This document shows, in pieces, positions 3,925 to 41,341 of a stretch of 64,000 nt of DNA. This stretch comes from a virus: positions 1 through 64,000 of IMG/VR virus record IMGVR_UViG_3300037258_000150. One strand, 5' to 3'. Under the pieces are notes generated by a model. That model searched no databases and was not told where the DNA came from. It saw only the letters and a list, made by a program, of their open reading frames with translations. Position 1 is the stretch's first letter. Every line of letters starts with the position of its first letter. The translations under genes and the position numbers were made by a program.

Positions 3925-4253
3925 CGCCTCAACGCATACAACTGAGCCGGAAGAAGGACTGGCGCATCCCCCTGGATACGGTCGTCGTGAGCCGTCCGAG
4001 CCGATGGGGGAATCCATTCAGGGTCGGCGAGGAAGGCGTGCCCAATGCTGAGACGGCCGTGCGCCTCTTTCGCGCGCTACTGCGACGGGAGAGCAACGGC
4101 TCGAGCCATCGGGACTTCGTGTTCACCGACGCGCGATTGCGGGCCGATCTCGCCGGCAAAAATCTCGCGTGCTGGTGTCGGCTGGATCAGCCATGCCATG
4201 CGGACGTACTGCTTGAGATCGCGAACGCTTCCGAGGGCAAGACCAATGGCTGA
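3921..4253 (+). CDS. DUF4326 domain protein
   Basis: 110 residues matching the DUF4326 pattern (PF14216): TPQRIQLSRKKDW at the N-terminus, VVVSRPSRWGNPFRVG in the middle and NLACWCRLDQPCHADVLLE at the C-terminus with conserved Cys and His. The family is common in phages and has no established function; the CWC..CHAD part could bind a metal. It is coupled by ATGA to the upstream gene and overlaps the next by eight bases. Confidence 0.85.
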   Translation: MTPQRIQLSRKKDWRIPLDTVVVSRPSRWGNPFRVGEEGVPNAETAVRLFRALLRRESNGSSHRDFVFTDARLRADLAGKNLACWCRLDQPCHADVLLEIANASEGKTNG

Positions 4254-5328: not shown

Positions 5329-5538
5329 ATGACCGCCAGACAGCTCCAGCGGCTCCTCGATGGGATGAAGATCTCCCAACGCGGAGCCGCAAAGGCCATC
5401 GGGATCAGTGAGCGCCAGATGCGCCGTTATTACGCAGGCGATGCCAAGATTCCAGTGACTGTTGAATGCGCGTTGATGTGGATTAGAGCAGGTAGTCGTG
5501 AAGGATACGACAGGCTTGTCGAGGAGACATCGAATTGA
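5329..5538 (+). CDS. Small helix-turn-helix DNA-binding protein
   Basis: 69 residues. MKISQRGAAKAIGISERQMRRYYAG is a clear helix-turn-helix (about residues 13-37), with the turn at IGIS and recognition helix ERQMRRYY, of the sigma-factor/Cro-like type. It lies directly upstream of the integrase, whose TTG start overlaps its stop (TTGA). It may regulate integration or act as a Cro-like or excision factor; that role is inferred from position. Confidence 0.8.
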   Translation: MTARQLQRLLDGMKISQRGAAKAIGISERQMRRYYAGDAKIPVTVECALMWIRAGSREGYDRLVEETSN

Positions 5539-6341
5539 TCCTCTCAGACATCTTCGACCGCTATCTGCGCGACGTCCTCCCGACGCTCGCGCCCCGCACG
5601 CAGAAGGACTACGCGCGCCATATCGTGATTCTGCGCCAGCGCTTCGGACATCTCGAGGCCAACGCATTGAAGCCCCGGGACATCGGGGCATTCCTCGACG
5701 TGGCGAAGGGCAAGATCCAGCGCAACCGACAGGTAGCAGTCCTATCGGCCGTCTACGCCAAGGCCGTGGGGCGCTGGTACGTTGCCGAAAAGAACCCCTG
5801 CCGGGATGTCGAGCGCAATCCGAGTTCCAGGCGTACGCGCTACGTGACCGATGAGGAGTACATCGCCTTCTACACCATCGCCTCGCAGCGCATCCGGATC
5901 GCGATGGACTTGGCCTTCGTCATGGGGCAGCGTCAGGGCGACGTTCTGGACTTGAAGTGGGATCAGGTAACGCCCGAGGGCATCAAGATCCAGCAGGGCA
6001 AAACGGGCAAAAAGCTGATGATTGGCTTGTCCGAAGTGCTGAACGCCATTCTCGCGCGGGCCAAACTGCTCAGTCCTACCGGCTCTCCATATGTGCTCTG
6101 TGCCCGCACAGGGACGCGCTACACGGCCGAAGGATTCCGGGCCTGCTGGCAGCGCGCCATGCGCAAAGCGCGGCGCCTCGGGGCTGTGGGTGAGCGCTGG
6201 ACGTTCCATGATCTACGCGCCAAGTGCGTGAGTGATTCCGAGACGTTGGAGTCTGCCTTCGAGCGCGCCGGCCATACGACCATGGCCATGACTCGGGGCG
6301 TTTACGACCGGAACTTCCGCAAAGTGAGCCCGCTGAAATGA
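5535..6341 (+). CDS. int: Tyrosine-type integrase
   Basis: 268 residues, TTG start behind GAGGAG at 5521-5526. It is a phage integrase-family tyrosine recombinase: an N-terminal SAM-like core-binding region (about 1-95, with TLAPRTQKDYARHI), then the catalytic domain. Visible catalytic residues are Arg133 in GQRQGDVL, Lys156 or Lys159 in the beta-hairpin QQGKTGKK, the HDLR box (His225, Arg228), His247 in GHTTM and the nucleophile Tyr257 in GVYDR. It lacks an arm-binding N-terminal domain, so it is short for a lambda-type integrase. It makes the phage likely temperate. No attP core could be identified next to it by eye. Confidence 0.92.
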   Translation: MILSDIFDRYLRDVLPTLAPRTQKDYARHIVILRQRFGHLEANALKPRDIGAFLDVAKGKIQRNRQVAVLSAVYAKAVGRWYVAEKNPCRDVERNPSSRRTRYVTDEEYIAFYTIASQRIRIAMDLAFVMGQRQGDVLDLKWDQVTPEGIKIQQGKTGKKLMIGLSEVLNAILARAKLLSPTGSPYVLCARTGTRYTAEGFRACWQRAMRKARRLGAVGERWTFHDLRAKCVSDSETLESAFERAGHTTMAMTRGVYDRNFRKVSPLK

Positions 6342-6375
6342 GACTTCCTCATTCCACATCCGCTGGGTGCTCCTG

Positions 6376-6495
6376 ATGTACGTGCGCTGCATCTGCGACC
6401 TCGACGGCAAGCTCCATGGCGAGCGCTGCCCGCACTGCGCCGGCTGGGGCGTGCTGCTGCGGGAGCTGCCGCCGAAGCCGGAGGCTATTCCGTGA
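6376..6495 (+). CDS. Mini zinc-binding protein (39 aa)
   Basis: ATG at 6376, ending in a GTGA overlap with the methylase gene. The peptide starts YVRCICDLDG and contains CPHCAGWG, giving two Cys pairs in 39 residues, typical of a tiny zinc ribbon. Such mini-genes just ahead of Dam-type methylases are common in phages. Its function is unknown. Confidence 0.6.
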   Translation: MYVRCICDLDGKLHGERCPHCAGWGVLLRELPPKPEAIP

Positions 6496-7019
6496 AGTCG
6501 GCCGCGCTCTTCGACATCGCGGGCATCAGCCAGGAGAACGACGAGTGGTATACACCGTCCTGGGTCTTCCGAGCGCTGGCGATAGAATTCGACCTGGACC
6601 CGTGCAGCCCAGGCCGTCCGCCCTCCTCCGTACCGGCCCGCAGGCACCTCACGAAGGCCGAGAACGGCCTCACGGCCGACTGGGAAGGTTCGGTATGGCT
6701 CAACCCGCCCTTCTCCGGGAAGCGCCCCTGGTACGAGCGCATGGTGCTCCACGGCGATGGCATTGCCCTGATGCCCGCCAGAACCGAGACGCATGACCTG
6801 CAGGCATACATGCAAGCCGCGCAGGCGCTCCTATTCCTGCGAGGCCGGATTTACTTCGAGCGCGGCCAGCGGCCCGGTGGCAATGGCGTGGGCGGTGTAA
6901 CGACAACCCCTCCGTTCGGCGTCGTCCTTTGTGCCTACGGTGAGCGCATGGCGATCGCGCTTCTCGAAAGCAAACTGATGGGAGTGCGCGCTAGCGTGCA
7001 TCCGAGAACAACCGACTAA
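6492..7019 (+). CDS. Phage DNA N-6-adenine methyltransferase (Dam type)
   Basis: 175 residues, GTG start at 6492 overlapping the previous stop. It matches the phage Dam family (PF05869): DEWYTPSWVFRAL near residues 17-29, FDLDPCSPG, then the catalytic VWLNPPFSG at about 68-76 with the NPPF motif of N6-adenine methylases, and a C-terminal strand region with FGVVLCAYG. It likely methylates adenine in phage DNA using S-adenosylmethionine, protecting it from host restriction or affecting regulation. The recognition sequence cannot be told from the protein. Confidence 0.88.
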   Translation: MKSAALFDIAGISQENDEWYTPSWVFRALAIEFDLDPCSPGRPPSSVPARRHLTKAENGLTADWEGSVWLNPPFSGKRPWYERMVLHGDGIALMPARTETHDLQAYMQAAQALLFLRGRIYFERGQRPGGNGVGGVTTTPPFGVVLCAYGERMAIALLESKLMGVRASVHPRTTD

Positions 7020-10430: not shown

Positions 10431-11191
10431 GCGGCTTCCCTGATGGCCGACATCTGCGTCTCCAGGTCCGTGAGCGACAAGCCGGCCGGGCTCTTGCCAG
10501 TCGCCAGGATCCAATCCGCATCGGCGAGCAGATACGCCTCATCGACGTAGGCCGACCAGAACGCCCAGGTCATCCGGTAGGCTTTGCTGCCCCAGGAGAT
10601 GATGTTGAGGCCGTCCGCGTCGTAGCCGGCCGCAATCACCGCATGACCGCCGATGATATTCGCCGTGCCCGGCCGCACATCCCAGACCTGCTCGGACATG
10701 ATCCAGTCCGGTACGTTAAAGCCGAGGTAGCAAAGACCGCCATCGTAGATTGCGAGCTTCACGTCCGCGAAGTTCGACGGGTCCACTTCGACGAAGGCGC
10801 TGATGCGGTGCCGGCCGCTCGTGACCGGAATCCCTGAGAGCATGGCGAAGGTGAGCACCGACTGCTCATCCCCACCCCTGTCGGTCGAGGCATCCCCCGC
10901 TTTGTACCCGCACGCCTCAGAATAGAGCTCGATGATATTCGAGTCCGGCTCCGTGTCGATTGGCGGGTTGGCGTTCGCCGTCCAGACCTGAAGCGCATGC
11001 CCGAGGGCGGCGCAGGTACAGTCGCCGAGCGAATTGTTCCCCATCATGCCGAGGTCTGCCGGCAATGCGACCGTGTAGTCGCAGGAGACCGGAGGCGGCG
11101 CGAGAGCGCGGCGCCGCCCGGCCAGCAGGGCTGAGAGATGCGGCACCCGAGGATTGAATTTCCGCGGGAGCCGCCCGAGCATGCCGCCCAT
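10427..11191 (-). CDS. Papain-like (C1-type) cysteine peptidase
   Basis: 254 residues. GNNSLGDCTCAALGHA puts a candidate catalytic Cys at 58 (second Cys at 60), IIGGHAVIAAGYD gives His183, and NIISWGSKAYRMTWAFW supplies the Asn/Trp part of the papain fold. Similar stand-alone proteins occur in phages and bacteria with unknown substrates. No export signal. It starts 3 bases after the small gene 11195-11566 and is coupled to the lipase. It could be a virion or lysis-associated protease. Confidence 0.78.
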   Translation of the reverse strand: MGGMLGRLPRKFNPRVPHLSALLAGRRRALAPPPVSCDYTVALPADLGMMGNNSLGDCTCAALGHALQVWTANANPPIDTEPDSNIIELYSEACGYKAGDASTDRGGDEQSVLTFAMLSGIPVTSGRHRISAFVEVDPSNFADVKLAIYDGGLCYLGFNVPDWIMSEQVWDVRPGTANIIGGHAVIAAGYDADGLNIISWGSKAYRMTWAFWSAYVDEAYLLADADWILATGKSPAGLSLTDLETQMSAIREAA

Positions 11192-11194
11192 GCC

Positions 11195-11566
11195 TTACGC
11201 CTTCTTCTGCTGCGCGAGCTCCGCGCCAGCCGCCGCTGCAATGCCGGCTCCCGTATCGGCGAACCAGCCCTTGAGCGACTCCCCGAGGAAGGGCGAGTTC
11301 TGCACGACCTGCCAGTCGATCTGCGCGGCCGGGGTCACAAACGCCAGCGCGTTGGCGGCGAACTGCGCCATGGCCGGATCCTTGATGCCGGCGACGAGAG
11401 TCTGTAGCTGCGCGGCCATGGCCGTGAAGTCCCCCGTCCCGCCGGCATTGAAGTACGCGGCGATCGTGGAGGCGGTATTGGCGGCCGCCACCTTGTCAGC
11501 GGCCATGCTGATGGCGAGCGCGGTGGCGCCGTTGGCGGCGAGGTAGGGGATGGAAGTGTTGCTCAT
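11195..11566 (-). CDS. Ala-rich hypothetical protein
   Basis: 123 residues from ATG 11566 (ATGA overlap). Almost entirely Ala-rich helix with a central DWQVVQNSPFLGESLKGWF. Possibly a structural or virion-associated protein. No family recognised. Confidence 0.7.
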   Translation of the reverse strand: MSNTSIPYLAANGATALAISMAADKVAAANTASTIAAYFNAGGTGDFTAMAAQLQTLVAGIKDPAMAQFAANALAFVTPAAQIDWQVVQNSPFLGESLKGWFADTGAGIAAAAGAELAQQKKA

Positions 11567-11832
11567 TTGGGCTCTCGTGGAGGCGCCGGCACCGCCGGCA
11601 GAATAGGGTTCGAGGCCAAGACCGCCTTGGCTTGGACGTAAGTCTGCGCTGTCACGTGACCCCTCCAATAGGTGAGTACCGCGATGGCTCCGAGACAGCC
11701 TTTCATGTACTTGTCGGGAATGAAGCCGCCCTCGGCGAGCACGGCGAGAGTGCCACCGGAGACGGCAAGGATGCGTGTCCAGCTGTTATTGAGCGCTTCC
11801 CAGACGTTGGTTGCGAAAATCCAGAAGTTCAT
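11563..11832 (-). CDS. Small membrane protein, holin candidate
   Basis: 89 residues from ATG 11832. Two short hydrophobic segments (about residues 20-36 and 47-58) flank GGFIPDKYMKGC; the tail is Pro-rich (ILPAVPAPPREPK). Its place two genes from the M15 endolysin suits a holin or a pinholin-like protein, but the segments are weak and the charged C-terminus short. The class is inferred from context. Confidence 0.6.
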   Translation of the reverse strand: MNFWIFATNVWEALNNSWTRILAVSGGTLAVLAEGGFIPDKYMKGCLGAIAVLTYWRGHVTAQTYVQAKAVLASNPILPAVPAPPREPK

Positions 11833-12224
11833 GGTGTCACCACTACAGTTAAGCCGCTCGGGGCGCCGGGCGTCTTCGTTGTCGGTACCGGCGCGCCCTG
11901 GCATGCCTCGCTTGAATGGGCCGACTCTATTCCGGCTACTACCGCCGTCACAAAGCCGCAAACCTGCTGGGTAGAGGTATAGCCAGAGGTCACCGCGCTC
12001 GTAAATCTGATGCCGGTCTGCACTGGCGTTGGGGCTTCACTACCGGTACCCGCTACACCAACGTAGAGGTTGTACGTGATGGTTGCCGTGCTCGGGATTG
12101 CCGTGCCATCAGTGTACTGAGTGGGGGCGACGTAAGACCAAGTCGCGGTGCCCGTCGTCTGGGCAGTGGCAACGGACGCCACCATCAGCGCGAGCAATGC
12201 GGCATGTCGCTTTCGAATCGCCAT
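11829..12224 (-). CDS. Secreted small beta-sandwich protein
   Basis: 131 residues from ATG 12224. A Sec signal peptide is clear: MAIRKRH, hydrophobic AALLALMVASV, cleavage after ATA before QTTG. The mature part is about 110 residues of Thr/Val/Ser-rich strands (ATWSYVAPTQYTDG, TITYNLYVGVAG) resembling a fibronectin type III-like domain. A GTG at 12266, overlapping the endolysin stop as GTGA, gives an alternative start with 14 more residues ahead of the signal. It is one of eight signal-bearing proteins in this phage. Confidence 0.72.
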   Translation of the reverse strand: MAIRKRHAALLALMVASVATAQTTGTATWSYVAPTQYTDGTAIPSTATITYNLYVGVAGTGSEAPTPVQTGIRFTSAVTSGYTSTQQVCGFVTAVVAGIESAHSSEACQGAPVPTTKTPGAPSGLTVVVTP

Positions 12225-31840: not shown

Positions 31841-32056
31841 CTAATCCAGCTTTGCACCTTTTGCGCGCGATCTCTCGACGACATCCTTGAAATGCTCTAG
31901 CGTCTCACCTTTGGTATGCGGTGGCGCTCCTGTTATATCGACGCCGTGAAGATATCCGCGAATGCCAGGCGTCAATAAATCCCTAGATCCAGGCGTCTTG
32001 ATGCCAAGACCGTCTAAAATACAGTCGAGAGCGACTCTGTCGTCTTTCATGGTCAA
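31841..32056 (-). CDS. Small hypothetical structural-region protein
   Basis: 71 residues from ATG 32056, overlapping the Nudix-gene stop by four bases. GIRGYLHGVDITGAPPHTKGETLEHFKDVVERSR suggests a conserved small helix protein near neck genes. No function known. Confidence 0.6.
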   Translation of the reverse strand: MTMKDDRVALDCILDGLGIKTPGSRDLLTPGIRGYLHGVDITGAPPHTKGETLEHFKDVVERSRAKGAKLD

Positions 32057-33021
32057 TCCCGCCTCGGCCCTGGAAGTTTCTGTAGCGTGCCAATGAGTTC
32101 TTGACGCACGCGCTTGACGAACGAGTCGAGCACGCGATGGCCGGTGTCAATATCGCCGTGGCCCACCCGCTTGACCTGAGACGGGGAGATCACCCATTCC
32201 CCCCCGGCCGCGACAATCGGCACGCCTGATACTTCTCCGCCAGCGGCCTTGCGCGCGCGGGCCTTGAGTTTCTTGAGCGCCGCGCGCACGCCGGGATGCA
32301 GCGGTAGTTTTTCGGCTTCATCAAGACCCACCCATTCAGCCCTGTCGTGCTCGTCGTTGAGTTCAGGCTTGAACTCATCCGGAGCATGGGCCAAGTAGGT
32401 GGTGAACGCAACGTTCTCCCGGTCGCTGTGCATGAAGGGCGAGAGGCCACCATCGTGCTCGTAGCCGGTCTCTTCGCGCACTTCGCGGCGAGCGGCATCT
32501 TCGGGACGCTCGCCCTTCTCGATGTGGCCCGCCGGCAATGCCCACTCTCCTGCGTGCTCTTGCCCCTTGCGGCGCATCAGCAGTACCTCACGTTTAGGCG
32601 AGAGAAAGAGCACGCCAGCGGCCTTGATGCGGCCGCCCCTGGCGTAGGTGACGGGTAGGCCGTAGACACCACCCGTTTGGCCATAGGGCGAAGTGCCCGC
32701 GTAGGGCTCACCGCCAAAGGTGCGGCGCAGGACCTTGAAGCCGGCGAGCGTGTTACCTTCGCCCCCGGCGCTAACGATATCAGCTGGTAAAACGTAACTG
32801 CCTGACTCCACCGTCATCGGCAGGTGATCCGTGCGGCCGGACACGGCGGCATGGATGGGGCCTACGTGAAAGCGGCGCGTGATGTCCGTGCCGCCGCCGT
32901 CTTGCCGGTGCTTACGGGCGACATTGAGAGCCGCCGCGATTGACTGATCGCGCGGATGGCCGGCGTCCTCCATTTCCTCGATGTTGTGACCGATGTTTGT
33001 TTTACCTGGAAGTAACGGCAT
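32053..33021 (-). CDS. Structural-region protein with inserted Nudix hydrolase domain
   Basis: 322 residues. The N-terminal third (HNIEEMEDAGHPRDQSIAAALNVARK, FHVGPIHAAVSGRTDHLP) and the C-terminal 60 residues (VPIVAAGGEWVISP, DIDTGHRVLDSFVKRVR) look like the two halves of one phage protein found near portal and neck genes. Between them, about residues 133-255, lies a Nudix domain with an intact box: Gly165, Glu171, Arg179-Glu180, Glu183-Glu184 and Gly186. Nudix enzymes hydrolyse nucleoside diphosphates linked to another group. The combination in one chain is unusual. Confidence 0.75.
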   Translation of the reverse strand: MPLLPGKTNIGHNIEEMEDAGHPRDQSIAAALNVARKHRQDGGGTDITRRFHVGPIHAAVSGRTDHLPMTVESGSYVLPADIVSAGGEGNTLAGFKVLRRTFGGEPYAGTSPYGQTGGVYGLPVTYARGGRIKAAGVLFLSPKREVLLMRRKGQEHAGEWALPAGHIEKGERPEDAARREVREETGYEHDGGLSPFMHSDRENVAFTTYLAHAPDEFKPELNDEHDRAEWVGLDEAEKLPLHPGVRAALKKLKARARKAAGGEVSGVPIVAAGGEWVISPSQVKRVGHGDIDTGHRVLDSFVKRVRQELIGTLQKLPGPRRD

Positions 33022-33023
33022 AG

Positions 33024-33689
33024 TTATATCGCTCCCGCCAACAATCCAGCGTCGTTGGTTTTCGGATTACGTTTGTGCTTCCATCCGCTTTTTTGCTCTG
33101 GCAGGTGCTCAATCGTGTGACAGTTTGGGCACAGAATTTCTATATTATGCTTCGTGTTGTTAGTTCTATCTCGATTCTTGTGATGGAGCGCCAGTATTTC
33201 AGGAACTTCTTTATAGCCACATCGCTCGCAATTGATCATGAGGCCGCGCTTCCTGAGCCACGCAGCAATAGCTTGTGTTCTCTGTGATTTTGGCCATTCA
33301 ACCAATTTTCCTACGCCCATGCATTTGTAACTGCAATATGTTGGAGCGTAGACGCCGTGATGGCGTCTCTCAAACTCCACGCCGCATGTTTTGCACTTCG
33401 TTTTGATCTTTGGATACGTTGGTTTTTTGCCGCCTCCTCGATTAGCAGGTTGTATACCCTTGCGTATGGCATTTCCTAAGCATTTTTTATTACAGAATCT
33501 AGCCGTTTTAGCGCGTGGCGCCGTAGTGAAGAATGTTGCGCCGCAATTCAGGCAGATCCTGGGATAGTTCTTGCATTTATTCCGCTCTTTGGCGCACGCG
33601 GCGCACCTAAATGGCTTCTTGCCGTGGCGGTCGCGTTTCCGCGACGTTATTACACCGCAGTCATCACAGGGCATCTCCATTGTGTTCAT
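33024..33689 (-). CDS. HNH endonuclease with several zinc fingers
   Basis: 221 residues. Three or four Cys pairs (CDDCG, CAAC, CLNCG, CKTCG) precede the HNH part ILALHHKNRDRTNNTKHNIEILCPNCHTIEH near 166-196. This is the second HNH homing-type endonuclease in this region. It has its own gap from the neighbours and an AT-richer sequence than they have, as expected for a mobile insert. Confidence 0.85.
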   Translation of the reverse strand: MNTMEMPCDDCGVITSRKRDRHGKKPFRCAACAKERNKCKNYPRICLNCGATFFTTAPRAKTARFCNKKCLGNAIRKGIQPANRGGGKKPTYPKIKTKCKTCGVEFERRHHGVYAPTYCSYKCMGVGKLVEWPKSQRTQAIAAWLRKRGLMINCERCGYKEVPEILALHHKNRDRTNNTKHNIEILCPNCHTIEHLPEQKSGWKHKRNPKTNDAGLLAGAI

Positions 33690-36139: not shown

Positions 36140-36922
36140 TCACCGCGTTGGAGTCGCGGCGGTTGGAGTGGAGTAGGAGGACCAGCCTGAGCCCTCGGCC
36201 TTACGGCGATCCTCGACTGCTATTGCACCCAAGCGCAACGCTTGGTACTGCTTTTCGTATGACATTCCCATATCTGGCTGATCGCTTTGCGCACTAAAAT
36301 TGCGCTGATATGCTGATATGAAGATCATGCTGCTCATAACCAACATGTCCGGATAGTACTGCGAGATATACGTATACGCGGTATCCGCAAGTCCGCTGGA
36401 AGCGTTGATATAGAGACTCGGCGGAAATGCGGTCCCTGTCACGCGTAGAGAATACGTATAGTTCGGCGGAGGGCCCAATAAGATGTTTGTATTCGTGTTC
36501 TGTTCACTCCCGAACTGATCTCCATAGAGTGCCGCGAATCTAGGCATTCCGGATTGTGCTATGCCGCTATAGCAATTCTGAATGAACTCCTTTGAGACGA
36601 ACGTCAGTGGCGAGGAAGTGACCACTATCCCGCTGGAGATTTGCACGATTTCAGCGGTCTGTATGGTCCAGAAATCTCCAGCGGGTATCGCGAAGACGGA
36701 TTGTCCCATCGTCAAAGAATATGTATTTGATGTCTGTGAGGACAGCAGATCCAGATCGCGCGCAATCCGGCTTTCCGCATAGGCGAGGATCTGCGGCAAT
36801 ATCTGCTGCAATGGCGCATCAACGAAAGCGTAAACGCCGCCCGACTCCTGCGTAAGCTCAACGGCCAACGAACCGATCGTTTGCACCCATGCGTTAAATG
36901 AAAGCGGATTCGGGCTGCTCAT
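36140..36922 (-). CDS. Neck / head-tail adaptor protein
   Basis: 260 residues. Helical N-terminus (PLSFNAWVQTIGSLAVELTQ), then PLQQILPQILAYAESRIARDL, a beta middle, and PDMLVMSSMIFISAYQRNFSAQS. This matches the adaptor-type proteins of podophages that sit between portal and tail hub. Its first 20 residues closely parallel the start of the upstream GIY-YIG gene. Confidence 0.65.
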   Translation of the reverse strand: MSSPNPLSFNAWVQTIGSLAVELTQESGGVYAFVDAPLQQILPQILAYAESRIARDLDLLSSQTSNTYSLTMGQSVFAIPAGDFWTIQTAEIVQISSGIVVTSSPLTFVSKEFIQNCYSGIAQSGMPRFAALYGDQFGSEQNTNTNILLGPPPNYTYSLRVTGTAFPPSLYINASSGLADTAYTYISQYYPDMLVMSSMIFISAYQRNFSAQSDQPDMGMSYEKQYQALRLGAIAVEDRRKAEGSGWSSYSTPTAATPTR

Positions 36923-37830
36923 TCGGCCTTCTTGGCATGACGCCGTCTGGCTGCCATTGCTATATTCGCGCGCCCCTCCGGTGACTTGCGTTTTCCTTTG
37001 TTGCCAGCAGAAATAGCGGCACGATGAGCCGCTGACATGGGGCCAAGTTTTTTTCCTTTCTTGGCAGCCGATAACTTAGCGCGTGTCTCTGCCGTTTGAA
37101 TTCTAGGCTTACCAACATGCGACAAACGCAGCGCTTCTTTGACATGCGGAGGCATTGGACGCCCCTTGGATGCGGCACCGATGTTTGCTTTGTGCTCCTC
37201 GGTAAAATAGCGCTTTTTCCCGCGATTTATAGAAGCGAGCATCTCTATCACTGCGGTATTGACTTTCCTGCCAGCAGCTCTAGCGGCTATTCTTGCGCGC
37301 GTCTCTGCCGAGCGCTTACGGCCAGTGTGAAACGCCACAGTCTTGGCGATAGCCTCTGGAGTATGCTTATAGCCAGAACAGCCTTCACCGCCGCAACTCA
37401 AGTTCACCAGGCCGAACCCGGCATCGCGCCAATAAGCTATTCTTTCTCGCTCCATGGCGAAAGCGGCTTCTTCCGATAGTCGGTTGGCGACGATCCTGAT
37501 TTGGATGGAGACCCCCAAGGCCGCTAACTGAGACCGCATGGCGACATGAGTGCTATTGCGGCCGTTAAGCATATCGGATGACCGGGAGCCATGACCTTTC
37601 CCGACGTAGAAGGGGACATTGATATCGCTGCGCCAGTGTTCATAAACGTAAAATTTGGTATCGTCTGTGTCAGCCATGATCGCATCCTCATCATGCATCG
37701 TGGTTAGGGGGCGCGTGACGTTCGTAGCGTCTCGCGTCCTCCGAATTATAGCTGCAGCACGATCCGCCAGCACCCCCAGCTGCTGAACGTAGGCGTTGTA
37801 TGAGAGAGGAGTGGTGGCTGAGGCTGTCAT
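36919..37830 (-). CDS. GIY-YIG homing endonuclease with NUMOD3 repeats and a neck-like N-terminus
   Basis: 303 residues, ATGA overlap at its end with the neck gene. The catalytic part starts near residue 59: KFYVYEHWRSD and PFYVGKGHGSRS (GIY-YIG motifs), Glu127 in AMERERIAYW and Asn143 in GLVNLS. From 157 onward there are four or five NUMOD3-like DNA-binding repeats (EAIAKTVAFHTGRKRS, EEHKANIGAASKGRP, ETRAKLSAAKKGKKLG and others). Residues 1-22 (MTASATTPLSYNAYVQQLGV...) imitate the first residues of the following neck protein, as if the enzyme took over another allele of that gene. An internal ATG at 37678 could make the enzyme alone. Confidence 0.85.
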   Translation of the reverse strand: MTASATTPLSYNAYVQQLGVLADRAAAIIRRTRDATNVTRPLTTMHDEDAIMADTDDTKFYVYEHWRSDINVPFYVGKGHGSRSSDMLNGRNSTHVAMRSQLAALGVSIQIRIVANRLSEEAAFAMERERIAYWRDAGFGLVNLSCGGEGCSGYKHTPEAIAKTVAFHTGRKRSAETRARIAARAAGRKVNTAVIEMLASINRGKKRYFTEEHKANIGAASKGRPMPPHVKEALRLSHVGKPRIQTAETRAKLSAAKKGKKLGPMSAAHRAAISAGNKGKRKSPEGRANIAMAARRRHAKKAE

Positions 37831-41209: not shown

Positions 41210-41341
41210 TCATGCCACCCTTGGGAGATATCGAAAGGTACGCCCTGCAGCGCTCTTTCGCACTCCACGGCAGACTTCAGCATCCGGGCGCCAGTGCTCG
41301 TATACGTAGTAATCAACACGGATTAGATCAGGCTTGCTCAT
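41210..41341 (-). pseudogene. Truncated GIY-YIG endonuclease remnant
   Basis: A 43-codon frame (ATG 41341 overlapping the previous stop) starts MSKPDLIRVDYYVYEHWRPD, matching YVYEHWRSD of the intact GIY-YIG enzyme at 36919-37830. After that the frame loses all similarity: the expected FYVGKG motif is missing. It ends one base before the next gene starts. It is best read as the stub left after most of a homing endonuclease was deleted. Confidence 0.6.

Follow-up and report, generated by a model that had tools for sequence, protein, structure and literature searches.

Intron-less homing endonucleases are usually thought to spare essential genes by inserting between genes. The locus described here raises the question of how such an endonuclease gene came to begin with a piece related to the start of the neck gene that follows it. 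The window, a stretch of 64,000 nucleotides, makes up almost all of a 64,034-bp contig from an uncultured virus. As originally predicted, it contains a GIY-YIG open reading frame (ORF) followed by an intact neck gene, and both ORFs were confirmed on the minus strand (Table 1).

Table 1. Positions of the neck gene, the GIY-YIG ORF with its parts, and the flanking genes in the window
Feature	Position	Strand	Remarks
Upstream gene, 247 aa	37834..38577	minus	Stop 3 nt before orphan start
GIY-YIG ORF, 303 aa	36919-37830	minus	N-terminus MTASATTPLSYNAYVQQLGVLA...
Orphan neck-gene start, 22 codons (MTASATTPLSYNAYVQQLGVLA)	37765..37830	minus	NAY allele type; in frame with endonuclease
Linker, 87 nt	37678..37764	minus	Contains GAGG at 37686-37689
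Putative GIY-YIG homing endonuclease itself (MADTDDTKFYVYEHW...), carrying a NUMOD3 motif	36919..37677	minus	PHROG 314
ATGA shared by the endonuclease stop and the neck start	36919..36922	minus	Read from sequence
Intact neck / SU10-adaptor gene, 260 aa	36140..36922	minus	NAW-type start; N-terminus MSSPNPLSFNAWVQTIGSLAVE...
Downstream gene, 686 aa	34076..36136	minus	PHROG 3287 virion structural protein

The neck-gene start and the endonuclease

The neck protein matched the Pfam family SU10_adaptor at 44.5 bits (cut-off 27). The 22 N-terminal residues of the GIY-YIG ORF are homologous to the neck N-terminus, and the homology ends sharply after codon 22; we refer to this piece as the orphan. The original prediction that the two N-termini are related yet diverged was borne out, with a local match score of 56 (BLOSUM62) against a best score of 45 among 100,000 shuffles (0/100,000 reached the match). 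At the DNA level, 29 of 48 bases were identical across 16 aligned codons, which argues that the orphan and the window neck are diverged alleles and not the products of a recent duplication. A profile of the neck N-terminus matched the window orphan at 35.9 bits (E about 9e-9), and the sole other orphan that it matched among 161 neck loci was that of the virus L009 (50.8 bits).

The endonuclease matched the homing endonucleases of PHROG 314 (E=3e-17) and contained a NUMOD3 motif (40.6 bits, cut-off 20.4), which was present in 24 of 30 aligned family members. The motif FYVYEHW...FYVGKG was recognised, and residues Y63, R67, Y75, G77, E127 and N143 were invariant or nearly so across 30 relatives. 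The Pfam GIY-YIG family was reached by four family members, not by the window protein itself, and fold and profile searches, including PDB, matched GIY-YIG proteins weakly. The gene is sporadically present, lies in no Rfam intron, and has an empty site in the relative L005, where the orthologue of the 247-aa gene directly abuts the neck. By its sequence, the window ORF would be a free-standing phage GIY-YIG homing endonuclease, presumably capable of cutting and homing. An intron-like structure between the two N-termini had been named in advance as evidence to the contrary, and a search of Rfam found no intron family at the locus even at E<=5. A group I intron carrying a GIY-YIG ORF was rejected, with no intron fold match and a downstream gene that is complete without splicing; a sub-threshold RF00043 match over 37670-37743 was taken as chance.

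Most relatives in a 30-member alignment started a few residues ahead of FYVYEHW. The window endonuclease has 51 extra N-terminal residues, made up of the 22-residue neck piece and the linker. The native endonuclease start is probably the ATG at 37677, which has a GAGG 8 nt upstream; the internal ATG proposed originally stands as a candidate start, at 37677 and not at 37678. An RNA hairpin at this internal start was no better than shuffles (z -1.3). In the predicted protein model, residues 11-36 formed a lone helix, the linker had low confidence in its middle (pLDDT < 50 for residues 37-39 and 41-47), and the nuclease domain was modelled with confidence from residue ~59 onward. The linker DNA gave no blastn match to the fetched loci, and its tblastn matches were weak and at chance level.

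Further nuclease genes were observed in the window and its relatives. A second GIY-YIG gene remnant (DYYVYEHWRPDAEVC...) lies at 41210-41338 (minus), between a 248-aa and a 307-aa gene. The same junction holds full endonucleases in L010 (293-1240), L024 (5262-5915) and L033, and a GIY-YIG remnant of roughly 45 codons in L047 (about 4053-4190). In L067, a 385-aa endonuclease ORF (11061-12218) apparently consists of C-terminal repeats of one GIY-YIG gene joined to a complete second one. A free-standing HNH endonuclease gene occupies window positions 33024-33689 (minus), flanked by the 127-aa gene and the structural gene that comes next; it had no match in the first 21 neck loci and distant relatives in L093-L095 and L097. 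An ORF at 32053-33021 (minus) shows by eye an apparent NUDIX-type box (GHIEKGERPEDAARREVREETGYE) within a longer predicted protein, and a similar ORF was present in L009 at 5473-6792.

Neck alleles in relatives and a second locus

Our survey covered 161 loci with a neck gene, comprising 76 distinct necks with a start region. The neck genes of relatives begin mostly with NPLSFNAWVQ (NAW) or NPLSYNAYVQ (NAY). The window combines the two, with an intact NAW neck and a NAY orphan that is nearest to the NAY-type starts of L063, L018, L015 and L020. Among the 76 distinct necks, orphan starts were found in two viruses only, the window and L009, each beside GIY-YIG sequence, and no orphan start was found without endonuclease sequence. 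Two normal tandem neck genes, the other arrangement held in advance to speak against the original prediction, did not occur in the 161 loci or 76 distinct necks, and an origin from tandem neck paralogues was rejected. Apparent double necks in L070, L184, L188 and L192 proved to be in-frame insertions within one ORF; those in L070 (1244-2131), L188 (2426-3421) and L192 (3988-4998) are low-complexity or tail-like insertions in mid-protein. Named phages gave no nucleotide match to the window, the window neck had one distant phage match (34.7%), and the necks found in contigs of metagenome-assembled genomes were distant only and gave no host assignment.

The flanking genes of the window are closest to L005, including the 686-aa downstream gene (g686), which served as a flank control and has about 82-83% amino acid identity to L005. 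However, the window neck is closest to that of L002 (79% amino acid identity versus 68% for L005). A mosaic breakpoint within the window neck was not significant (MaxChi, 338/2000 permutations), and the discordance between this neck and its neighbours is only suggestive, being statistically weaker than that of L009. Searches with g686 found no relative combining the window flanks with a NAY neck and no closer flank relative, and searches with the upstream 247-aa gene found no further relatives.

In L009, an orphan NAY start (1422-1493) precedes a stretch of about 65 nt with an inverted GIY-YIG scrap, after which comes an intact NAW neck at 1559. The scrap, only about 45 nt from a GIY-YIG start, reads YVYEHWRTDTNLPFY on the reverse strand and matches other endonuclease genes with up to 97% identity over 30 nt. 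The orphan leads a 46-codon ORF that ends in an ATGA overlap with the neck. It shows 88.6% identity over 70 nt to the neck start of L063/L086, which also share the L009 flanks (L086: g127 94%, g686 87%). In the empty-site relatives G002 and L209, a NAY start lies exactly at the position of the L009 orphan and leads into an uninterrupted NAY neck. As in these two relatives, the L009 orphan is preceded by the g152 stop and begins with GTG (61/72 nt identical to G002). A comparison with relatives lacking the endonuclease, proposed with the original prediction, thus yielded a NAY start at the orphan position for L009 and a NAW start in L005 for the window, whose orphan matches relatives by NAY type only.

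Furthermore, the L009 neck is a mosaic. Codons 1-50 are nearest to L002 (up to 82%; G002 60-71%), whereas codons 51-130 are nearest to G002 (80-89%; L002 54-70%), and past the first ~50 codons the gene is nearest to G002, followed by L086/L063 and others. MaxChi values of 35.5 and 50.4 were reached in 0/2000 permutations, a procedure that ignores correlation between neighbouring sites. Because the empty-site relatives hold a NAY start at this position and the neck is mosaic, we interpret the L009 orphan as the scar of the resident gene's own start. In L009, the native end is kept as an orphan that matches relatives without the element, and a foreign end is joined to the resident gene. As judged from these comparisons, the import in L009 is endonuclease sequence together with a putative substitute start (~50 codons) running into the resident neck. 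According to the original prediction, the endonuclease seemed to have inserted into one allele at its 5' end, while the full neck gene came from a different one. The arrangement fits the window and is seen more directly in L009; however, the foreign part in L009 is not a full gene but only the 5' ~50 codons and the endonuclease DNA.

Proposed mechanism and alternatives

In the mechanism that we favour, a free-standing GIY-YIG gene would enter the 5' end of the neck (head-tail adaptor) gene, with a break in the resident neck near codon 22-24 that the enzyme itself would probably have made. Donor-templated repair would copy the endonuclease DNA along with the first part of the donor neck, and the incoming neck start would join the downstream neck coding sequence by homologous recombination, restoring a full-length gene. 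The first 22-24 resident codons would stay upstream as an orphan, which in the window would become fused in frame to the endonuclease and in L009 would come to lead the 46-codon ORF. We extend this scar mechanism from L009 to the window by analogy, because the ends of the two orphans (66-68 and 71) lie no more than 5 nt apart and because the window neck is discordant with its flanks. We consider endonuclease entry with a donor neck start rather probable for the window, although we infer both the cleavage and the direction of transfer there. Against it count the inverted orientation of the L009 scrap, which simple homing does not explain, the NAW start of L005, the nearest flank relative of the window, the non-significant mosaic test of the window neck, and the search that found no close relative with the window flanks and a NAY neck. 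The two orphans also carry a T at a position that is N in most neck genes (L047 and L114 likewise have T), and they may therefore share one origin.

The inserted ORF at either locus ends in an ATGA overlap with the neck start and would probably hand ribosomes to the neck. Of 75 distinct necks, 48 have an upstream ORF whose stop codon falls at -8..+4 relative to the neck start, and a Shine-Dalgarno sequence of at least 5 nt was present in only seven of the 75. The overlap of endonuclease and neck is likely to reflect translational coupling, and since the ATGA is kept at both loci, the neck probably receives ribosomes from the inserted ORFs. More tentatively, the locus may represent a phage homing element that replaces 5' ends, in which one allele class in an essential virion gene would be cut, a cut-resistant substitute start imported, and the old start kept as a leader that feeds ribosomes to the endonuclease and, via ATGA, to the repaired gene; we regard this general form as possible but doubtful.

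The main rival of the scar mechanism, and the reading nearest to the original prediction, is that a NAY start was picked up once and has since travelled with the endonuclease, being placed before any recipient neck. The intact window neck is NAW, like that of the flank relative L005, and the NAY piece shares the reading frame of the endonuclease, as this reading would have it. Moreover, ATTPLSYNAYVQQLGV is common to both orphans. However, the L009 orphan is closer to the local resident start (44/48 nt, L063) than to the window orphan (38/48), and it occupies the place of the resident start. Such a piece is also missing from the rest of the endonuclease family: among 41 distinct endonuclease genes, a copy of the next gene's start was found only in that of the window, and no duplicated neighbour ends were found at the others, tandem endonucleases apart. 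We consider travel as a unit unlikely.

Less likely still is an illegitimate exchange of neck alleles that duplicated the start independently of the endonuclease, which would have invaded the spacer later. These phages are highly mosaic, the tail genes upstream of the neck differ between relatives, and the L009 scrap is inverted and short, all of which would suit such an exchange. However, GIY-YIG sequence lies at the same junction in both cases, and none of the 76 distinct necks has an orphan start lacking it. The agreement of the two breakpoints to within 5 nt would also have a chance of about 1.4% if they were independent and uniform over the 780-nt gene. A functional fusion, in which the N-terminal helix of the neck would serve the endonuclease, for instance by targeting it or controlling its expression, is very improbable. 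The reading frame is open through the fusion, a helix is predicted in this region, and codon changes between the window and L009 orphans are mostly synonymous (9 to 1). However, relatives do without the extension and start at FYVYEHW, the internal ATG with its GAGG makes it dispensable, the linker is of low confidence in the model, and the synonymous bias may predate the insertion. An assembly chimera of two strains, conceivable for a metagenomic contig, is scarcely credible given that L009, from an independent sample, shows a comparable arrangement and that the ATGA junction is exact.

Relation to known elements and implications

By analogy, the closest precedent for the scar mechanism is found in fungal mitochondria, where endonuclease ORFs accompanied by foreign gene 3' ends give rise to hybrid genes and leave the native end as an orphan, as in atp6 of Allomyces and atp6, atp9, cox2 and nad3 of Glomus (PMC3630166). 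The phage locus may be regarded as a 5'-end version of these elements. On our reading, both systems have the endonuclease ORF inside the gene boundaries, a foreign end that completes the gene, clear in L009, and an orphaned native end; the foreign end is diverged, whereas the native end matches close relatives (PMC3630166). However, the fungal hybrids are mitochondrial, concern the 3' end and are read through, whereas the phage locus lies in an operon, concerns the 5' end and uses a stop/start overlap (PMC3630166). Because it concerns the 5' end and not the C-terminus, we do not class it with the Allomyces atp6 type, although the two are alike in working.

The free-standing endonucleases of phage T4 (Seg/Mob) cause co-conversion of flanks and marker exclusion and convert neighbouring alleles (PMC2988022). 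Like them, the window gene is a free-standing GIY-YIG gene between genes that would use its neighbours' transcription and exchange adjacent alleles; however, neither a residual duplicated gene start nor an in-frame fusion is mentioned in that review (PMC2988022). Phage HEG-islands have nuclease genes at the boundaries of exchange (PMC10448857). As there, the nuclease sequences adjoin an essential virion gene at an allele-exchange boundary, but the islands move as whole endonuclease-bracketed modules, whereas in L009 the exchange stops within a single gene, where a scar remains (PMC10448857). Our literature search, which covered few subscription journals, found no report of endonuclease-linked duplication or replacement of 5' ends in phages.

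The scar, the two kinds of empty-site relative and the mosaic gene together give a stepwise picture of a break, the import of an endonuclease with a new start, and the preservation of coupling, and they link the phage case to the end-replacement elements of fungal mitochondria. The model predicts which neck alleles are cut, a prediction that is testable. It suggests that selfish genes may enter essential genes without killing them by bringing a replacement start.
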